64,000 bases of DNA from the NCBI GenBank assembly GCA_018604165.1, contig CP075895.1, positions 1,759,501 to 1,823,500 of the forward strand. Reading direction: 5' to 3'. The notes under the pieces were generated by a model. It ran no database searches, was not told the origin of the DNA, and saw nothing but the letters and a program-made list of their open reading frames with translations. The stretch comes from Chitinophagaceae bacterium LGM1. GTDB taxonomy: Bacteria > Bacteroidota > Bacteroidia > Chitinophagales > Chitinophagaceae. The first letter of the stretch is position 1; every line of letters starts with the position of its first letter. Below, one piece after another: positions 3,557 through 32,945 of this stretch. Made by a program: the position numbers and the translations under genes.

Positions 3557-5449
3557 TTGCAACAGCCCGTTACCATATTATCTCAATACTGGGGCTACCC
3601 TGCTTTTCGTGGCAATCAGGAAGCTATTATTAATGATGTATTACTGGGCAAAGATATACTCGCCCTGATGCCCACGGGTGGTGGCAAATCTATATGCTAC
3701 CAAGTGCCTGCACTGATGATGGATGGCTTATGCATTGTGGTATCGCCACTAATAGCATTGATGCAAGACCAGGTAGCAAGACTGAAAGAAGCCGGCATTG
3801 CAGCTGCCTGCATACATGCGGGTATCCACATACAGGGCGTAATAAGGGTGCTGGACAGCGCCGTTCATGGAGCGTACAAACTGCTCTATGTATCGCCAGA
3901 AAGATTGCAGACTACCCTATTCAACGAATACCTGCCTGCCATGCAGATTAGTTTTGTGGCAGTTGATGAGGCGCATTGTGTATCGCAATGGGGGCACGAT
4001 TTTCGCCCGGACTATTTGAAAATAGTATTGCTTAGAGATGTATTTGATAATATACCTTTTCTGTGCCTGACGGCTACAGCTACTACTGCTGTACAAAATG
4101 ATATTGCCCTACAACTGAAACTGCAAAGCCCTGTACTATATACACAAAGCTTCGAGCGAAGAAACCTATACTACACAGTACACTATACCGAAAACAAACA
4201 AAAAGAATTATTAGAGGCATTAATACAAACCAGCACATCATCTATTGTGTATTGCCGTAGCAGAAAACAAACAGAGGTATTGGTTGGCTACCTTGCACAA
4301 AACGGCATAGAAGCCATCAGCTACAATGCAGGCATGACGAAAGAGAAACGCGAAGATGCACAGCAGGCTTGGATGCAGAATAAAGTAAAAACCATCATTG
4401 CTACTACTGCTTTTGGTATGGGTATAGATAAGCAAGATGTAGGACTGGTGGTAAACTACGATGCACCTGAACATATAGAAGCCTATTATCAGGAGTCTGG
4501 CAGAGGCGGGAGAAACGGGCAGGCTGCACAATCGCTGATACTCTATAATCAAACAGACCTGAACAGGCTGGAAAGAAGTATAGAAATACAATTTCCGCCT
4601 ACAGATTATTTGCGCCATGTATATCAATGCGTGGCAGAATACCTGCAAATACCCATCAGTGCTGAGCCATACAGTTATTACGATTTCGACCTGAAAGATT
4701 TTTGTGAAAAATTTAAACTGGATGCCGCTATTGCCGCCAATGCACTGAAGCTATTGGAACAAGAAGGTTTATGGACATTGACGGAAGCTGTTTTCAATCC
4801 GCCAACCGTATTTATTACTTGTACAAGGCAAGAGCTTGATAATGTAATGAATACCTACCCTGAATTGGCATACTGCATCACTACCCTGCTGCGGCTCTAT
4901 GGTACTTTGTTTCAGTACCCAACTGCTATACGCACTGTAGCCATAGCCAAACAAATGAAAACCAACAAAGAGCAGGTTGAAAAACTGTTATTGAAACTGC
5001 ATGATATGGGTGTGCTTGAATACGCAACACAAAAAGAAGGACCACAATTATTTTTCCATCATTACCGGGTTGACAGCAAGCAACTCATCATCAACACCAA
5101 CCGTATTGCCAAATTAAAGAAACGACATGAGGAGCGTACGAATGCGATTGTTGCCTACCTGCATAACAACAACCAATGCCGTACCCGATTGCTGCTTGCT
5201 TATTTTGATGAAGAAAAACAAACAGATTGCAGACATTGTGATGTATGTGCATCGAAGCAAAAGCAAAACATCAGCCATACAGCCCTGCAAGAAAGCATAT
5301 TACAACATATAACAAAACCCATGAGTATTCACACAATAATGGAAGCACTAACGGGTTATGATAAACAACTTATTATGACTACCATACGTAGTATGATTGA
5401 CGAGAAAAGATTGCGCTTGTCGGCAGATGGGACAGTTACAAAAGCTTAG
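3557..5449 (+). CDS. recQ: ATP-dependent DNA helicase, RecQ family
   Basis: 630 residues. A 3'-5' superfamily 2 helicase that unwinds branched DNA during recombination and repair. Walker A MPTGGGKSICYQ (about 38-49), DEAH box AVDEAHCVSQWGHDFRP (135-151), motif III LTATAT, and motif VI YYQESGRGGRNG are intact. A Zn-binding RQC-type cluster follows (CRTRLLLAYF, then CRHCDVC). The C-terminus ends in a short winged-helix-like segment; no HRDC domain is visible. The only usable start is TTG at 3557, because an in-frame stop (3551-3553) lies just upstream and the conserved N-terminus starts at once. Its stop overlaps the convergent gene by four bases. Confidence 0.93.
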   Translation: MQQPVTILSQYWGYPAFRGNQEAIINDVLLGKDILALMPTGGGKSICYQVPALMMDGLCIVVSPLIALMQDQVARLKEAGIAAACIHAGIHIQGVIRVLDSAVHGAYKLLYVSPERLQTTLFNEYLPAMQISFVAVDEAHCVSQWGHDFRPDYLKIVLLRDVFDNIPFLCLTATATTAVQNDIALQLKLQSPVLYTQSFERRNLYYTVHYTENKQKELLEALIQTSTSSIVYCRSRKQTEVLVGYLAQNGIEAISYNAGMTKEKREDAQQAWMQNKVKTIIATTAFGMGIDKQDVGLVVNYDAPEHIEAYYQESGRGGRNGQAAQSLILYNQTDLNRLERSIEIQFPPTDYLRHVYQCVAEYLQIPISAEPYSYYDFDLKDFCEKFKLDAAIAANALKLLEQEGLWTLTEAVFNPPTVFITCTRQELDNVMNTYPELAYCITTLLRLYGTLFQYPTAIRTVAIAKQMKTNKEQVEKLLLKLHDMGVLEYATQKEGPQLFFHHYRVDSKQLIINTNRIAKLKKRHEERTNAIVAYLHNNNQCRTRLLLAYFDEEKQTDCRHCDVCASKQKQNISHTALQESILQHITKPMSIHTIMEALTGYDKQLIMTTIRSMIDEKRLRLSADGTVTKA

Positions 5450-6513
5450 TCAACATTTATCAGCGCATAAGCCCTGCCTGCTTTGTGATTGATGACAGCT
5501 ATATAGTTTCCTTTTGCAATATTACTTACGTCTATCCTTTTTGTATTCTGATATTGCGCTACAGATTTGCCTTGCATATCGTACACTTCAACAATAAAAG
5601 ACTGCCAGTTTGCAGGCACATCAATCGTTAAGTAACCACTTGTTGCAGGATTAGGATATACTTTCAAGATACTGATGGCAGGTGTTTCAGTAACGTTTAG
5701 CAAACCCGGACGATACATATCGCGATACCTGACTGTTGAAATCGTTTCTGTAGAACCAGTGATGGTAGCCGTCACCCATAGTATAGGATAGTGTTCGCCT
5801 GTTGCCAGCCATTTATACTCAACAGAATTTCTCGGAACACCCACAGCCGGTAATGGCCCTACTTTCACACTATCCACCTCGCGGATTTCAGAACGGACAC
5901 GGATGCAATTTACAGCAGTAGTAAAGAAGGGTGTTTTGATAGTCCCCCACCCGTCTACGGTGGTTTTACGGTGACCTTTTTGCCTGATGGAGCCAACAGT
6001 AGCAAGATTGAAATTGAGGTCGAAGCTGGTGCTATCATTCGTTACACCATATTGCAGGGGAAATTTGTAAACTTCATCCTCATCGGCATAAGCAGCAGGC
6101 GTTGGTATACCACTGATAGTAGCTGCAAAGCCCTCTGCAACAAACCTTGACGGGCTGCTTTTGATATTGAAAAATGTATACAGGTCTTTGATGGTAACAG
6201 GCAAACTAACACCCAAAGACGGAAAGCTATCGGCTACTTTATAACCATAAGCCGTGAGAGAAATAATACCAAACAAGGGGTTGACAGACAACGCGGTTCT
6301 GTAATTGGCAACCGACTGTGCAACAGGTACAAGGCTGCTATAATCCCATGTGTAACCAGCTCCGGTATTTGCCAGTACAATACCTGAAGCACCAGCCGTT
6401 ATACTGCTTCTTAAGGTATCGCCCACAACAGGCATATCAGAAGATACTATTTGTATTTGCGCGTTTGCATTCGTGCAATAAACTGATGCGAGTATTAACA
6501 GCCATTTTCTCAT
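5446..6513 (-). CDS. Secreted protein with T9SS type A sorting domain
   Basis: 355 residues. Signal peptide MRKWLLILASVYCTNANAQ. The body (about 20-270) has no recognised catalytic motif. The C-terminal ~75 residues form a type A sorting domain (LKVYPNPATSGYLTIDVP, then VEVYDMQGKSVAQY, ending GRAYALINVD), which sends proteins through the type IX system in Bacteroidota. The function of the N-terminal part is unknown. Its stop overlaps the end of recQ, leaving no room for a terminator between these convergent genes. Confidence 0.85.
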   Translation of the reverse strand: MRKWLLILASVYCTNANAQIQIVSSDMPVVGDTLRSSITAGASGIVLANTGAGYTWDYSSLVPVAQSVANYRTALSVNPLFGIISLTAYGYKVADSFPSLGVSLPVTIKDLYTFFNIKSSPSRFVAEGFAATISGIPTPAAYADEDEVYKFPLQYGVTNDSTSFDLNFNLATVGSIRQKGHRKTTVDGWGTIKTPFFTTAVNCIRVRSEIREVDSVKVGPLPAVGVPRNSVEYKWLATGEHYPILWVTATITGSTETISTVRYRDMYRPGLLNVTETPAISILKVYPNPATSGYLTIDVPANWQSFIVEVYDMQGKSVAQYQNTKRIDVSNIAKGNYIAVINHKAGRAYALINVD

Positions 6514-6560
6514 ATTGCTAAATTAATATTCTTTAATATTAATAGTAACTATTGGTAATA

Positions 6561-28797: not shown

Positions 28798-28893
28798 CAG
28801 ATAAGACATAAAGAGTTTAGATAATAGTAAAATATCAGAGAAGATGGATTGGCAAAAATGTAAAAAGAGTTTATTTTTATAAAAATGTGTTTT

Positions 28894-29262
28894 ATGAAAA
28901 ATATTATTGCATTAATGTTATTGCTGTGTATATCTCACTCATGCTTTTCACAAACAGGAAAGTTCCAAGAAATACCATATAACAGAAAACAACATTCTGT
29001 AAAAGAACATAGTAAACTCATTGCAAGTTCTTACGGGTTAATATTCAAGTTTAGCAGAGCTGAGCGTAAAACTATTTATCACGACATTCTTAAGTTTTAC
29101 GCTGCTAATGGTGTAAATGAAACACCTGAAAAATTGCATTTATATCTACAAGATAAAATGAAAGCAGTTTTAACCGTAAATGAATACAGTGTGTATCAAA
29201 AAATGAGTAACTATTTTGAATTCATTTTTGCTAAAGGAGCTCCTAATATTGCTTTGAAATAG
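28894..29262 (+). CDS. Small secreted protein of unknown function
   Basis: 122 residues from ATG 28894, chosen because it begins a signal peptide (MKNIIALMLLLCISHSCFSQ) directly; an ATG three codons upstream is possible. The signal could also be read as a lipoprotein signal around SHSC. The mature part is helical and basic (KFSRAERKTIYHDILKFYA) with no known motif. It is visibly more AT-rich than its neighbours. It lies between two copies of the DinB 3' end and its stop is two bases from the convergent DinB stop, suggesting arrival with a local rearrangement. Confidence 0.65.
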   Translation: MKNIIALMLLLCISHSCFSQTGKFQEIPYNRKQHSVKEHSKLIASSYGLIFKFSRAERKTIYHDILKFYAANGVNETPEKLHLYLQDKMKAVLTVNEYSVYQKMSNYFEFIFAKGAPNIALK

Positions 29263-29895: not shown

Positions 29896-30474
29896 TTATA
29901 AGCGCACTTTGCCCAATAGCTTGCTGAAAGTGGCAGGGTCTACACCTATATAAGATGCCAGGTATTTGTGCGGTATCAGGTTCAGTACATGGGGGCTGCG
30001 CTTCAGTAATGTGGTAAACTTCTCTTCGGCAGTATAGCTCATTACCTCTACCTGCCTTTCCATCGTACCTGCCAGTGTGTGGGTAAGGGCAAGGCGTACC
30101 CATGTTTCTATACTGCGGTGTGCCTGCATGAGCCGGTGCATATCGTTGTAATGAATACGCAGCAGATTGCTTTTGGTAATAGTTTCCAGATAAAAGCGGG
30201 ATGGTGTTTGTGTAAAAAAGCTATCGATAACACCCGAAAATGAGGGTGCATAGGAAAATACAATCGTTACCTCTCTGTCGTTGTGCTGAAAGAAAGCACG
30301 TTGTACCCCGTCCGTAACCATATACACATAATGCTCTACCTCTCCTGCACGGGTAATGAGTTGTTTGCGCTTATAGGCAACGGGCTCCCAACAGGTGGCT
30401 AAAGCCTGCCAAGCCGCATCGTCCAGCGTGTGTACGGCAAATACCTGTTGCTTGAGCATGGCTATCGCATCCAT
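29896..30474 (-). CDS. Crp/Fnr-family transcriptional regulator
   Basis: 192 residues. Cyclic-nucleotide-binding-like barrel at about 15-125 (KRKQLITRAGEVEHYVYMVTDG, TIVFSYAPSF) and a C-terminal helix-turn-helix (IPHKYLASYIGVDPATFSKL). The barrel lacks the full cAMP-binding arginine motif, as is common in Bacteroidota members, so the ligand is unclear. The chain ends soon after the recognition helix. The palindrome arrays begin just upstream of its start. Confidence 0.88.
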   Translation of the reverse strand: MDAIAMLKQQVFAVHTLDDAAWQALATCWEPVAYKRKQLITRAGEVEHYVYMVTDGVQRAFFQHNDREVTIVFSYAPSFSGVIDSFFTQTPSRFYLETITKSNLLRIHYNDMHRLMQAHRSIETWVRLALTHTLAGTMERQVEVMSYTAEEKFTTLLKRSPHVLNLIPHKYLASYIGVDPATFSKLLGKVRL

Positions 30475-30546
30475 AGCGTAAAAATACAGATGTAGTTAAG
30501 AAATAGGATGTTTTGGTGCGAATACCTGAAAAAAACAGAGGCAGCT

Positions 30547-30600
30547 TGCCCAAGTATGCCCATGTGCCCAAGTATATTATCATTTGGGCAAATGGGCAAA
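30547..30600. repeat. Left-arm palindrome module, word TGCCCAA
   Basis: Three near-copies of TGCCCAA in a row, an AT-rich centre (30572-30583), then two reverse complements (TTGGGCA, TGGGCAA). Same word as the outermost right-arm module at 32394-32444. Confidence 0.85.
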
Positions 30601-30612
30601 GTATCATTCTCT

Positions 30613-30671
30613 GCTCATGCTGCTCACGCGCTCACGATGCTCATTATATATTTAGCGTGAGCACTGTGAGC
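30613..30671. repeat. Left-arm palindrome module, word GCTCAC
   Basis: Four GCTCAT/GCTCAC words, centre TATATATTTAGC, then two GTGAGC. No counterpart with this word on the right arm. Confidence 0.85.
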
Positions 30672-30722
30672 GTTCACGTGTTCACGGTGTTCATACTCCT
30701 GTAGCGTGAACAAGATGAACAT
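30672..30722. repeat. Left-arm palindrome module, word GTTCAC
   Basis: Three words (GTTCAC, GTTCAC, GTTCAT), centre ACTCCTGTAGC, then GTGAAC and GAACAT. It matches the inverse of the right-arm module 32345-32393, including GGTGTTCAT and the GTAGCGTGAAC junction. Confidence 0.85.
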
Positions 30723-30774
30723 GTTCGCACCTGTTCGCGGTGTTCATATATACTTAGCGCGAACAAACGAACAA
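30723..30774. repeat. Left-arm palindrome module, word GTTCGC
   Basis: Words GTTCGC, GTTCGC, GTTCAT, centre ATATACTTAGC, then GCGAAC and CGAACAAG. It corresponds to the inverted right-arm module at 32292-32342. Confidence 0.85.
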
Positions 30775-30780
30775 GGGAAA

Positions 30781-30814
30781 CTGTAACACTGTAACAAGTG
30801 TTACAGCGATACAC
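30781..30814. repeat. Left-arm palindrome module, word TGTAACA
   Basis: CTGTAACA twice, then TGTTACAG, ending GATACAC. Further TGTAACA modules lie at 30987-31020, 31800-31834, 32039-32080 and 32270-32286. Confidence 0.8.
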
Positions 30815-30818
30815 TATT

Positions 30819-30880
30819 TTGTCCCAGTTTGTCCCACTGTCCCAAAATATAGTAACTGGTTTTCTGGGACAGATGGGATA
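30819..30880. repeat. Left-arm palindrome module, word TGTCCCA
   Basis: Three TGTCCCA words, centre containing TATAGTAACTG, then TGGGACA and TGGGAT. The same core, inverted, occurs in the right-arm modules at 31980-32034 and 32157-32220. Confidence 0.85.
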
Positions 30881-30890
30881 GGTGCATTAA

Positions 30891-30922
30891 TTACGTCATT
30901 GCGAAGGTCATTGCGAAGTAGG
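30891..30922. repeat. CATTGCGA-type intergenic repeat fragment
   Basis: ACGTCATTGCGAAGG followed by a second GTCATTGCGAAG. Related to the elements at 32081-32147 and 32221-32269. Such sequences are common intergenic repeats in many bacterial genomes. Confidence 0.65.
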
Positions 30923-30986
30923 AAGTAACTATTCTCATGTAACGAAGCGGAATAATTCCACAGGATGAGTGGTTTGTGTTATACGG

Positions 30987-31020
30987 CTGTAACATTGTAA
31001 CAACTGTAACAGTGATACAC
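30987..31020. repeat. Left-arm inner module, word TGTAACA
   Basis: Three TGTAACA-type words (CTGTAACAT, TGTAACA, CTGTAACAG) ending GTGATACAC; 16 bases before the stop of the orphan membrane-protein gene. Confidence 0.75.
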
Positions 31021-31036
31021 TTAGATTTTACTTACG

Positions 31037-31669
31037 TCATTGTAAGCTTTCGTAATAACTCACTTTTTGTTTGTTATTGACTATGTCAACTTTTTGTTGT
31101 TTTGAATAGTCACCATCTTGATAAAACATAGTATCAGCTTTTATATCAATAGGAAGATAGTATTCTATGCTAAGAGAATAATCGGGTAGAAAATCATCAA
31201 AAGAAAATGAGAAATAAATATGAGTAGATTGCTTAGGAATAACTGGAAACTTAGTCAGTTTTATTATTTCATCATATTCTTCTATTGTTAAGTTCTTAGC
31301 TTCATATCCCATTGCAGAAACATTATAAACCTTTGCTTGAGCTTTATCTCTTAAGGTCTTATTAATAAATCTGTTATCAATAATCCATACAGAATAATCA
31401 ATATATATGTAAGAAGAAATAAGTAGGGTTGTTATTATTGTAATAGAGAGTTTTACTTTATTATTAGTAACATTCTTCTTATTGAAAATATATAGTAATA
31501 GTCTTGTGGCTAATAAAGATATTATTGTAATACCTATAATCTTTATGAATTCAAAAGGCCTTACATTATTGAATATTAGCTCAAACCTATCAGTCCATAT
31601 TGCATGAAGTGCCGTTAGGACTATTAGGTTTACAATACTTATTATGTAGTATTTTAATGCTCCTTTCAA
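31037..31669 (-). CDS. AT-rich orphan membrane protein inside the palindrome arrays
   Basis: 210 residues. Three hydrophobic segments (about 8-24, 43-60, 73-92) followed by a soluble C-terminal domain with many Tyr, Lys, Asp and Ile and no recognised motif. Third positions are strongly A/T compared with every neighbour. No family is recognised. It is flanked on both sides by mirror-ordered palindrome modules and has no functional neighbour. Inference: either a passenger gene brought in with a repeat-bounded segment, or a native gene into whose flanks the repeats accumulated. Confidence 0.65.
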   Translation of the reverse strand: MKGALKYYIISIVNLIVLTALHAIWTDRFELIFNNVRPFEFIKIIGITIISLLATRLLLYIFNKKNVTNNKVKLSITIITTLLISSYIYIDYSVWIIDNRFINKTLRDKAQAKVYNVSAMGYEAKNLTIEEYDEIIKLTKFPVIPKQSTHIYFSFSFDDFLPDYSLSIEYYLPIDIKADTMFYQDGDYSKQQKVDIVNNKQKVSYYESLQ

Positions 31670-31799
31670 ATGATATATACTGGTTTGTGAATTTATATAA
31701 TAACGGCTTAATTATAGCATTGGTGTTGTGGTAAATATCATCTTATTACAAGATTTGTTCACTATCGCATTGACGCAAGTAGAAATACAGAAGTATAGG

Positions 31800-31834
31800 C
31801 GTTACAACTGTTACAGTGTTACACTTGTTACACA
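31800..31834. repeat. Right-arm inner module, word TGTAACA
   Basis: Words GTTACA, TGTTACA, TGTTACA and TTGTTACAC; innermost right-arm module, mirror partner of 30987-31020. Confidence 0.7.
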
Positions 31835-31844
31835 CATAATCATA

Positions 31845-31950
31845 ACGTCATTTCGACCAACGGGAGAAATCTCCTGACGTTTGTACTGACGATGCATGAA
31901 GCGACACCGCTATCTCTCAGGAGATACCTCTCTGCGTTCGGTATGACGAC
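31845..31950. repeat. CGTCATTTCGA-type element with inverted ends
   Basis: Starts CGTCATTTCGACC and ends with the near-reverse complement GGTATGACG. The longer ends, each containing TCTCCTGA or its complement TCAGGAGA, pair imperfectly over about 32 bases. Resembles widespread Bacteroidota intergenic repeats. It lies between two word-palindrome modules. Confidence 0.7.
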
Positions 31951-31979
31951 CTTGATTTGGCAATGACGCGAGTAATGTA

Positions 31980-32034
31980 CTGTCCCAAGTGTCCCACCGT
32001 TTCAGTTACTACACTTTGGGACAGTGGGACAAAA
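31980..32034. repeat. Right-arm module, word TGTCCCA
   Basis: Two TGTCCCA words, centre CGTTTCAGTTACTACACT, then TGGGACA and TGGGACA. It is the inverse of the left-arm module at 30819-30880. Confidence 0.85.
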
Positions 32035-32038
32035 TAAT

Positions 32039-32080
32039 GTAACGCTGTAACAGTTGTTACAGTGATACAGTTGTTACAGG
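32039..32080. repeat. Right-arm module, word TGTAACA
   Basis: TGTAAC, TGTAACA, then TGTTACA twice, separated by GTGATACAG. Confidence 0.8.
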
Positions 32081-32147
32081 CTCGTGTTGTTGTGAGATTG
32101 CTTCGTACATATCTGCATTCGCAGATACTACCTCGCAATGACGTGAG
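32081..32147. repeat. CATTGCGA-type element, copy with internal hairpin
   Basis: Ends GAGATTGCTTCG and CGCAATGAC, bounded by CTCGTG and GTGAG. The centre ATCTGCATTCGCAGAT forms a short hairpin. It lies between a TGTAACA and a TGTCCCA module. Confidence 0.7.
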
Positions 32148-32156
32148 TGTGTATTC

Positions 32157-32220
32157 TGTCCCATTTGTCCCACCGTTTCAGTTACTATACTTTGGGACAG
32201 TGGGACAAGTTTGGGACAGG
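32157..32220. repeat. Right-arm module, word TGTCCCA (second)
   Basis: Two TGTCCCA words, centre CGTTTCAGTTACTATACT, then three TGGGACA words. Read in reverse complement this is the 3+2 arrangement of the left-arm module 30819-30880. Confidence 0.85.
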
Positions 32221-32269
32221 CTCATATAATCGCAAGATTGCTTCGTACCTCGCAATGACGGATAGCGAG
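32221..32269. repeat. CATTGCGA-type element, shorter copy
   Basis: AGATTGCTTCGTACCTCGCA then ATGACGG; lacks the inner hairpin of the copy at 32081-32147. Confidence 0.7.
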
Positions 32270-32286
32270 TGTAACACTTGTTACAG
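32270..32286. repeat. Right-arm short module, word TGTAACA
   Basis: TGTAACACTTGTTACAG, a single inverted pair, lying between the CATTGCGA element and the GTTCGC module. Confidence 0.7.
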
Positions 32287-32291
32287 TCTGT

Positions 32292-32342
32292 TGTTCGTTT
32301 GTTCGCGCACAGGAGTTACGAACACCTCGAACAAGCGCGAAC
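32292..32342. repeat. Right-arm module, word GTTCGC
   Basis: TGTTCG, TGTTCGC, centre GCACAGGAGTTAC, then CGAACA, TCGAACA, GCGAAC: two words then three, i.e. the inverse of 30723-30774. Confidence 0.85.
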
Positions 32343-32344
32343 AT

Positions 32345-32393
32345 GTTCACGTGTTCACGCTACGGGGTTATGAACACCGTGAACAGCATGAAC
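32345..32393. repeat. Right-arm module, word GTTCAC
   Basis: GTTCAC twice, centre GCTACGGGGTTAT, then GAACAC, GTGAAC, ATGAAC. Its reverse complement shares the word order and the CGTAGCGTGAAC junction with 30672-30722. Confidence 0.85.
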
Positions 32394-32444
32394 GCCCAAC
32401 TGCCCAAATAATATTAACTACTACCGCATGGGCAGCTTGGGCAA
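32394..32444. repeat. Right-arm outermost module, word TGCCCAA
   Basis: GCCCAAC, TGCCCAA, AT-rich centre, then ATGGGCA and TTGGGCAA. Mirror partner of 30547-30600. From here to 32531 nothing further is recognised. Confidence 0.8.
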
Positions 32445-32531
32445 TATATTAAAAATACACGCCATGTGGATTAGCCAAAGTTTGGCACGATATTTATTGC
32501 ATACAGATTAGGACTAAATACTGACAGGAAC

Positions 32532-32945
32532 ATGGAATACAGTATCAACACACATAGCACAGACGATGCCGAAGACCTATTTATAGTAGCCAAAGAACGC
32601 CTGCTGGACATCAACGACTGGCGAGAGGGGCATACCTATACGCTGACAGACGGCCATAAACGCAAGGCCCACCGCAATGCTCACAGTGGCGACTTTATAA
32701 AAATAAACACCGATACTTGGGTATATATCAATAAGATACAGTACGATGACTACCCCGATATAGCTGGCGAAAGCATTACGATGTTTATGAGTACCGAGAG
32801 CGATACGGAAAGTATGCACACCGTAGCCATCAACCGTGTAGGTAAGGTACTGACAGTGCAGGGCTTCAACCTGTCTTTCTGCCAAGATGCTGTCGGCTTC
32901 CTGAAAGGGCTGATAGCTACCGAGGAGTATGCCATCGCATCCTGA
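32532..32945 (+). CDS. Hypothetical cytoplasmic protein
   Basis: 137 residues, no signal or membrane segment. Mixed alpha/beta composition with a polar N-terminal half (HKRKAHRNAHSGDFIK) and a C-terminal strand-rich half (HTVAINRVGKVLTVQGFNLSF). No family is recognised. The start ATG follows GACAGGAAC, a plausible ribosome-binding region. Codon use matches neighbouring native genes, unlike the AT-rich gene inside the arrays. Confidence 0.65.
   Translation: MEYSINTHSTDDAEDLFIVAKERLLDINDWREGHTYTLTDGHKRKAHRNAHSGDFIKINTDTWVYINKIQYDDYPDIAGESITMFMSTESDTESMHTVAINRVGKVLTVQGFNLSFCQDAVGFLKGLIATEEYAIAS

Follow-up and report, generated by a model that had tools for sequence, protein, structure and literature searches.

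Word-palindromes between two host genes

The window analysed here is a stretch of 64,000 nucleotides from Chitinophagaceae bacterium LGM1 (contig CP075895.1, positions 1,759,501 to 1,823,500), the genome of which is a single contig of 3.32 Mb. Between two host genes it contains a palindrome block of roughly 1.9 kb (window 30546-32445) around an AT-rich orphan gene at 31037-31669. Each module of the block usually consists of 2-4 copies of a 6-7 bp word, a loop and the same word inverted, giving a word-palindrome of ~26-62 bp. Modules with different words are nested in mirror order around the orphan gene, an arrangement that we call an onion, and between some modules there are repeats resembling repetitive extragenic palindromes (REP), which are distinct from the word-palindromes. 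The word GCTCAC has no right-hand partner. Labels beginning with L denote individual loci and labels beginning with G congeneric genomes. The features are as follows.

29896-30474, minus strand: left host gene, cyclic-nucleotide-binding (Crp-like) protein (PF00027, 7.7e-08)
30546-30600, plus strand: layer 1, TGCCCAA word-palindrome, left arm (module detector, alignment to right partner)
30613-30671, plus strand: layer 2, GCTCAC word-palindrome, left side only (module detector)
30671-30721, plus strand: layer 3, GTTCAC word-palindrome, left arm (inverted-repeat comparison, pair alignment)
30721-30774, plus strand: layer 4, GTTCGC word-palindrome, left arm (inverted-repeat comparison, pair alignment)
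30781-30816, plus strand: layer 5, TGTAACA word-palindrome, left arm (inverted-repeat comparison, pair alignment)
30819-30880, plus strand: layer 6, TGTCCCA word-palindrome, left arm (inverted-repeat comparison, pair alignment)
30892-30970, no strand: REP-like CATTGCGA repeat between layers (repeat families D14, I15, I21; matches elsewhere in genus)
30987-31021, plus strand: inner TGTAACA module, left arm (inverted-repeat comparison, pair alignment)
31037-31669, minus strand: AT-rich orphan cargo gene, 210 aa, TTG start (open reading frame; in 1/15 congeneric genomes, its own)
31800-31835, minus strand: inner TGTAACA module, right arm (pair alignment; polarity of this pair not clear)
31846-31948, no strand: REP-like CATTTCGACC..GGTATGACG element (inverted repeat I9; also in L134 and L034)
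31980-32032, minus strand: TGTCCCA word-palindrome, right arm, inner copy, inverted (module detector)
32038-32079, minus strand: TGTAACA module, right arm (repeat comparison)
32095-32143, no strand: REP-like ATTGCTTCG..CGCAATGACG repeat (repeat comparison; matches elsewhere in genus)
32156-32218, minus strand: TGTCCCA word-palindrome, right arm, outer copy, inverted (pair alignment)
32263-32288, minus strand: TGTAACA module, right arm, outer copy (pair alignment)
32291-32343, minus strand: GTTCGC word-palindrome, right arm, inverted (pair alignment)
32344-32393, minus strand: GTTCAC word-palindrome, right arm, inverted (pair alignment)
32394-32445, minus strand: TGCCCAA word-palindrome, right arm, inverted; outer edge of insertion (pair alignment)
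32532-32945, plus strand: right host gene, conserved 137-aa protein (orthologues adjoin Crp-like gene; no Pfam match)

The words and both orders listed in the first-pass annotation of this DNA are all present: read from the outside in, the left side runs TGCCCAA, GCTCAC, GTTCAC, GTTCGC, TGTAACA, TGTCCCA, TGTAACA, and the right side runs TGCCCAA, GTTCAC, GTTCGC, TGTAACA, TGTCCCA, TGTAACA, TGTCCCA, TGTAACA. Permutation of the module orders, using words entered by eye, bears out the claim that the mirror order is unlikely by chance (p=0.010, longest common order 6 of 7/8). The accompanying claim that every right-hand module is inverted holds for 5/6 aligned pairs, which align better inverted, but not for the innermost TGTAACA pair. 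Inverted copies shared by the two sides span 59 nt at 85%, 48 nt at 92%, 53 nt at 83% and 34 nt at 91% identity. Layer by layer from the outside in, left and right are 76, 86, 83, 85, 81 and 78% identical, the outermost and innermost pairs not exceeding shuffled partners (95th percentile 80% identity). A word-blind detector, which requires a 6-mer twice and its reverse complement twice at 8-12 nt spacing, gave 14 overlapping matches in the window, all at 30547-32385, and matches in 0/10 base shuffles; a looser version added two AT-rich matches, at 6523 and 31379, and a first-order Markov null gave 0 detector matches in 5 x 400 kb. The mirror order in the window is real, and it recurs at other loci.

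A single large inverted duplication, one of the origins suggested in the first-pass annotation, or an assembly artefact would make the two arms inverted copies of each other, as they are. However, corresponding modules are only 76-86% alike, the cargo between the arms is single copy, and the layers bear different words that recur elsewhere. Similar onions are found in several separately assembled genomes, and one site in two of them (L151/L142, described below) has common layers yet unlike cargo. We find this explanation hardly credible.

The flanking genes lie 2,057 bp apart in the window. The nearest named relatives at this locus are Chitinophagales/Flavipsychrobacter-like genomes, and in 7/10 named loci that keep both genes the two are 84-133 bp apart, the other three having 1.0-2.0 kb between them; short gaps are seen, for example, in 'Chitinophagaceae bacterium IBVUCB1' (L045) and in two metagenome genomes (L043, L044). 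The detector found one match in 32 loci (L043-L074), an AT-rich one at L059. Window 30546-32445 is an insertion between two ordinary host genes, absent from the orthologous site of relatives, and the earlier treatment of the block as a discrete unit is borne out by this comparison.

The orphan protein gave nothing above the Pfam cut-off, the best match being DUF7832 at 16.9 bits against 27 required. A scan of the window for tRNAs found none, and an Rfam search of it returned no family at gathering score (the presence of an attC model in Rfam was not checked). Outside the block, at 28885-29262, the window holds an AT-rich 125-aa open reading frame (ORF) with a GC content of 0.30 and a signal-peptide-like start, with no palindromes around it.

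Reader genes, their words and their cargo

Seven islands of word-palindromes abut the 3' end of one gene family, which encodes a KaiC/RecA-fold ATPase (Pfam AAA_25) with a C-terminal helix-turn-helix (HTH) and which we call the reader. Pfam models for AAA_25 and HTH matched in the three readers scanned, and a search of the genus gave 20 readers in 10/15 congeneric genomes. At its stop codon each of the 20 is followed by a word-palindrome, which the detector found in 17 (starting within 1-19 bp) and reading by eye in three (L227, L228, L235). A far array with the same word was detected at 15/20 reader loci, and in 12 of these 15 the near and far arrays align better inverted. The first-pass annotation had also proposed assembly outward from a centre; this is not favoured, because the 20 reader loci carry one word layer on their cargo and no multi-word onion around it.

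An AlphaFold model of a reader has a mean pLDDT of 68, with HTH blocks at about 91-95. A PDB sequence search with the reader alignment returned only an HTH fragment, 8vd6. A structure search showed weak similarity to KaiC-like RecA folds (TM scores of 0.36-0.41 among the 50 matches listed), and RSF1010 RepA is not among these 50.

The HTH-coding end of the reader gene differs between genomes together with what follows it. Between G004 and G008 the orthologous reader loci keep 90% identity until 137 bp before the stop codon, at the end of a conserved EHLK motif, and show no match across the HTH, the near array and the cargo; similarity is back at the outer end of the far array, resuming about 20 bp or less inside it, and also at a DUF6371 gene. 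Paralogues within a genome lose similarity near the same codon (G013 at -108, G014 at -154, G004 at -125), while a G002 pair with similar HTHs loses it only at -9. The HTH-coding end, array and cargo differ as one block between orthologous loci.

More than 10 different words were found overall, each repeated within its own module, and the words follow the helix of the adjacent reader. SKSTV occurs with TGTCCCA, TGTV with TGCTC, KGTV or KGSV with TGCCCA, SV-TV or SV-SV with TGTTCA/G, SAATV with TGTTTCA, SLGAV with TGTTCAC and SHMKV with TGTAACA. Lysine at helix position 3 corresponds to C at word position 4 in 20/20 readers (8 with lysine all C, 12 without all T), in a table for which the words were aligned by eye and the register chosen by hand. 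Words called automatically at 41 loci gave a Mantel r=0.69 (0/2,000 permutations), 33 unique helices r=0.58 (0/5,000), and, with the set restricted to other genera and viral contigs, 16 unique helices r=0.51 (0/5,000). The automated set began with 49 loci, one of them without an ORF; 7/48 were dropped for lack of a helix by pattern or for fewer than 3 word copies, and three called words among the kept 41 (L276, L278, L279) look wrong and were left in. Whole-protein shared ancestry does not account for the covariation, since the identity of the ATPase body correlates with word similarity at only r=0.02 and the partial helix-word correlation given the body is 0.49 (0/10,000). In each of four genomes (G002, G004, G013, G014) two readers have bodies 96-100% identical and differ in helix and word (4/4), and words differ in 9/9 genomes with at least two readers, a count for which no chance expectation was computed. 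In the AlphaFold model the covarying residues (337, 338, 341 and 342 of L220) belong to the third HTH helix, in its N-terminal part, within a block of pLDDT about 91. Recognition of the word by the reader helix is well supported by this covariation.

Two further readers may be recorded here. The viral-contig reader at L298, with the helix SEGAVRKWL, precedes a TGCGTAC array, which adds another class of word. A more distant ATPase of 712 aa at L279 has the helix SKSKIDRWF followed by TTGTCCC..GGGACA, again lysine at position 3 with GTCC.

Cargo genes across the islands belong to the OLD/AAA_15, AIPR/AbiU, bSEFIR, GajA-like, SIR2 (one ThsA-like), TIR, Fic and PDC-S31/DUF2971 families, together with several unknowns. 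PADLOC matched 12/20 cargo proteins (5/10 at E up to 1e-3 and 7/10 at E up to 1e-5), two of the matches being weak (L253, L258); its AAA matches are to a broad superfamily, and the rate has no host-gene baseline. No transposase was found among the cargo proteins scanned. Reader loci contributed 21 cargo ORFs from 19/20 loci (the 633-aa cargo of L251 lies outside the size limit), all 21 on the reader strand, with a median GC of 0.31 against 0.469 in 111 host ORFs (Mann-Whitney p=3e-13). Among 33 proteins compared, cargo homologues stand behind readers with different words in three pairs (L253/L257 at 65%, L256/L286 at 40%, L254/L274 at 33%); a fourth pair, L137/L138 at 75%, is one site. The palindromes in relatives frame exchangeable genes, often resembling virus-defence genes.

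Islands and readers in other genomes

Word-palindromes were detected in 13/20 stretches fetched from the window genome and its genus, and not in the other 7/20. Most of the 13 have at least one AT-rich ORF between palindromes, and the L134 onion contains no ORF that reaches 90 aa. The search for mirror order elsewhere in the genome and its relatives that the first-pass annotation had called for found it again, individually weaker: multi-layer mirror order is seen at L035, L134, L137, L138, L140, L142 and L151. The layer order is alike across sites (TGCCCA, TGCTCA/GCTCAC, GTTCAC, GTTCGC, TGTAACA, TGTCCCA), and a second order recurs (TTTCAC, TTCCA, TGTCCCA). The gene that adjoins the L134 onion in G003 has, in the window genome, an array remnant without cargo beside it (L032). 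In terms of density, samples of 400 kb each yielded 7 detector matches in the window genome, 6 of them judged real by eye, 4 in G003/G010, 3 of them judged real in this way, and 1 doubtful match in four reader-less genomes; these are small numbers, and a fifth reader-less genome, G011, lies outside the sample.

The clearest comparison is between L151 (G004) and L142 (G008), which have both chromosomal flanks in common and are 91% identical over the left flank and left arm. Their similarity ends at L151:4147, 2 bp beyond the innermost left array (4093-4145), and returns at 5691, which is 5 bp short of the innermost right array (5696). Between these inner arrays one site carries a GldM-like protein and the other a SIR2-domain protein. 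A minimal mobile element is recognised by conserved neighbours that enclose unlike genes in different strains or species, as they do in G004 and G008.

Conserved arms around unlike cargo would also fit allelic replacement on a passive platform of dispersed repeats, on which DNA taken up would recombine homologously through the arms and exchange the cargo, in the manner of Neisseria minimal mobile elements, with the reader-array pair as an unrelated plasmid-derived module for replication or autoregulation whose sites have spread. The near-identical reader bodies of paralogues in four genomes (96-100%) likewise make active recombination likely. Such a platform alone does not explain why the same word stands at both cassette ends at 15/20 reader loci by the detector, and it leaves unexplained the block-wise difference of HTH end, array and cargo as well as the empty site at the window locus. 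We regard it as somewhat unlikely.

REP elements or bacterial interspersed mosaic elements (BIME) moved by a TnpA-REP (Y1) transposase share several properties with the block: palindromic sequence, intergenic position and frequent inverted pairing. REP-like CATTGCGA elements are scattered through the block, and Y1 (PF01797) matches occur in 10/15 genomes. However, the words track the reader HTH, and G004 and G008 bear mirror islands and have no Y1 match, which makes this origin very improbable. The Y1 transposase was rejected as the mover on the latter ground. The REP-like family itself (CATTGCGAGG..GAAGCAATCTC) is separate from the word-palindromes and lies at window 30892-30970, 31846-31948, 32095-32143 and 32236-32260, and also at L034 and L036. 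Its variants show co-changing stem bases (ATTGC/GCAAT, ATGGC/GCCAT, ATTTC/GAAAT, ATTCC/GGAAT), and at L034:3450-3810 a tandem duplication of ~160 bp holds such elements. The family is present in reader-less congeners as well, and among the matches listed it is on REP-like parts that the reader-less genomes match the block.

Other arrangements were seen at single sites. Solitary TGTTGC palindromes without framed cargo occur in two species (L177:2984-3037 and L147:2013-2068) and may belong to another reader class. An island (L140) and a reader locus (L150) adjoin recA in two species. Between L140 and L142/L151 the island next to a cysteine-desulfurase-like gene differs in its left neighbours, which suggests rearrangement at islands.

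Readers extend beyond the genus, being found in 23/394 family genomes drawn and 14/101 genera (E up to 1e-30). Loci were obtained for 17/19 out-of-genus matches, and a clear word array stands at the gene end in 12 of these 17 by detector or eye; L279 has a short one, at L273 CGTAACA is repeated in a less regular pattern, L276 is ambiguous and no ORF was obtained from L280. All 12 viral-contig loci have an array, by detector in 9 and by eye in L287, L297 and L298. A DUF6371-like gene starts at most 400 bp from the reader stop codon in 19/29 out-of-genus and viral-contig loci; at L288 the reader is instead followed by a BT4734-like/PriCT_2 primase gene. The DUF6371 gene at L256, about 1.76-2.65 kb after the reader stop codon, is apparently split in two frames. 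Among Bacteroidales plasmid records, of which 3/8 matches were read (CP103138, NZ_OY725959, NZ_CP032820), each has a reader relative ~43% identical and TGTCCC arrays in or just after the ATPase gene, and the helix GKSTV is visible in two. This pairing of GKSTV with TGTCCC is what the code predicts, but it was met after the rule had been formed. Because a DUF6371 or primase gene often follows the readers outside the genus, a reader, an array and a primase-like gene may be the ancestral unit, with cargo a later addition. The DUF6371 product is a putative primase, and the module would on this reading have a replicative function.

These loci also bear on a silencing or operator system, in which a foreign AT-rich defence gene would be repressed or gated by a reader bound to the arrays on its two sides, and repeated capture would yield the mirror order as a by-product. 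Arrays do flank the cargo directly, the cargo at reader loci is AT-rich and always on the reader strand, and an ATPase-HTH protein could act as a switch. In other genera, on viral contigs and on plasmids, however, the array often lies between the reader and DUF6371, and regulation alone predicts neither nested words without resident readers nor the empty site; we consider such a system unlikely.

A proposed reader-addressed cassette system and similar known systems

Taking these results together, we consider it likely that genes are exchanged by a reader-addressed system, probably derived from a helicase/primase replicon, and that the block is a site of this system at which cassettes are nested. 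In the proposed mechanism the recognition helix of a reader would bind one 6-7 bp word, and a word-palindrome would be the binding array of one reader class. A cassette would consist of cargo framed by two same-word arrays, mostly inverted, lying directly after a reader gene or at other intergenic sites, and cassettes at readers would be exchanged as a block that includes the HTH end. Nesting would arise when a new array pair with its cargo replaces the cargo inside an older pair, so that onions would be stacked footprints of past readers and the window would preserve six or seven layers and one surviving AT-rich cargo. Reader, array and DUF6371 resemble a replication module of Bacteroidota plasmids and mobilizable elements, and movement could be by local replication from the facing arrays; capture at palindrome centres is another candidate, both being guesses. 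That TGTCCCA is the only block word with a reader in the genome today fits an archive of past readers and is not proof of one.

A stronger form of the proposal, which we hold only tentatively, is a self-addressing mobile cassette that carries the HTH-coding end of the resident ATPase, the array read by that HTH and a cargo gene. Replacing the C-terminus would reprogram the word and new cassettes would land inside old arrays, so that an onion would be a fossil record of the readers of its site. The helix-word pairs would then amount to a code for DNA recognition, subject to incompatibility-like selection in each genome.

A number of observations weigh against the cassette system. In the window itself there is no reader gene, no target-site duplication was recognised by eye, and the PADLOC scan of the orphan gave no match. 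Readers in the window genome have only the words TGTTCAA and TGTCCCA, and the other five block words need readers that have been lost or act from elsewhere. Identity between left and right arms, taken as a clock, shows no age gradient across the layers, and a pattern search found no HTH remnants inside onions. Mirror order at the other onions is individually weak (p 0.04-0.42 each), and these onions are partly non-independent: L142 and L151 are one site, as are L137 and L138, and L140 shares its right neighbour and arms with L142/L151 but has recA on its left. Some arrays also stand alone without cargo (L177, L147, L363). At the readers, the far array was undetected in 5/20 loci and is not clearly inverted in 3/15 (L244 and L256 score higher direct, L258 ties), arrays are missing from the distant readers L277 and L278, and only 8/20 in-genus readers have DUF6371 within 6.5 kb. 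Binding, movement and the direction of layering are proposed from sequence comparison.

If the proposal is true, defence-like genes are swapped at fixed chromosomal sites without a recognisable transposase, and the correspondence of recognition-helix residues to DNA words is a natural code that is easy to sample. The order of nested layers may also allow past turnover of cassettes to be reconstructed. The prediction that the helix binds its word is directly testable with purified domains.

Iterons, mobile defence genes and repeat-flanked exchangeable genes are each known separately. Among the titles and abstract beginnings of open-licence papers, preprints excluded, we found no named system with these features, in line with the first-pass annotation, which knew of no named family; one of these papers contains the term DUF6371. 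As far as these partial sources go, the tie between a swappable HTH end, its own word array, a cargo gene and nested arrays is apparently undescribed.

Replicons of the IncQ/RSF1010 type are controlled by iterons and encode a helicase and a primase. In organisation the readers would resemble them, with tandem words as putative sites for a replication protein, a RecA-fold ATPase (KaiC-like, hexameric by analogy), a primase-like partner and hairpin sites facing each other. Unlike iteron replicons, the system described here is chromosomal and multi-copy, its HTH is fused to the ATPase with a coding end that differs along with array and cargo, and its arrays nest and flank exchangeable, often defence-like genes.

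The AAA-DUF6371 modules of Bacteroidales plasmids and integrative elements share the ~43% identical ATPase, the GKSTV helix and TGTCCC arrays described above, and in two records the DUF6371 gene comes next. Their array lies in the end of the ATPase gene, one record having a second array after it. Unlike the chromosomal loci they carry mobilization and integrase genes, and the stretches read contain no mirror cassette.

Minimal mobile elements and dRS3 arrays of Neisseria are alike in combining palindromic repeats, exchangeable genes and conserved neighbours; they are not known to have a reader protein, word code or nested word layers. Integron gene cassettes share exchangeable and often defence-related single genes and hairpin sites (attC). 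Their attC sites are direct and there is one per cassette, whereas the sites described here are pairs of multi-copy words, mostly inverted.

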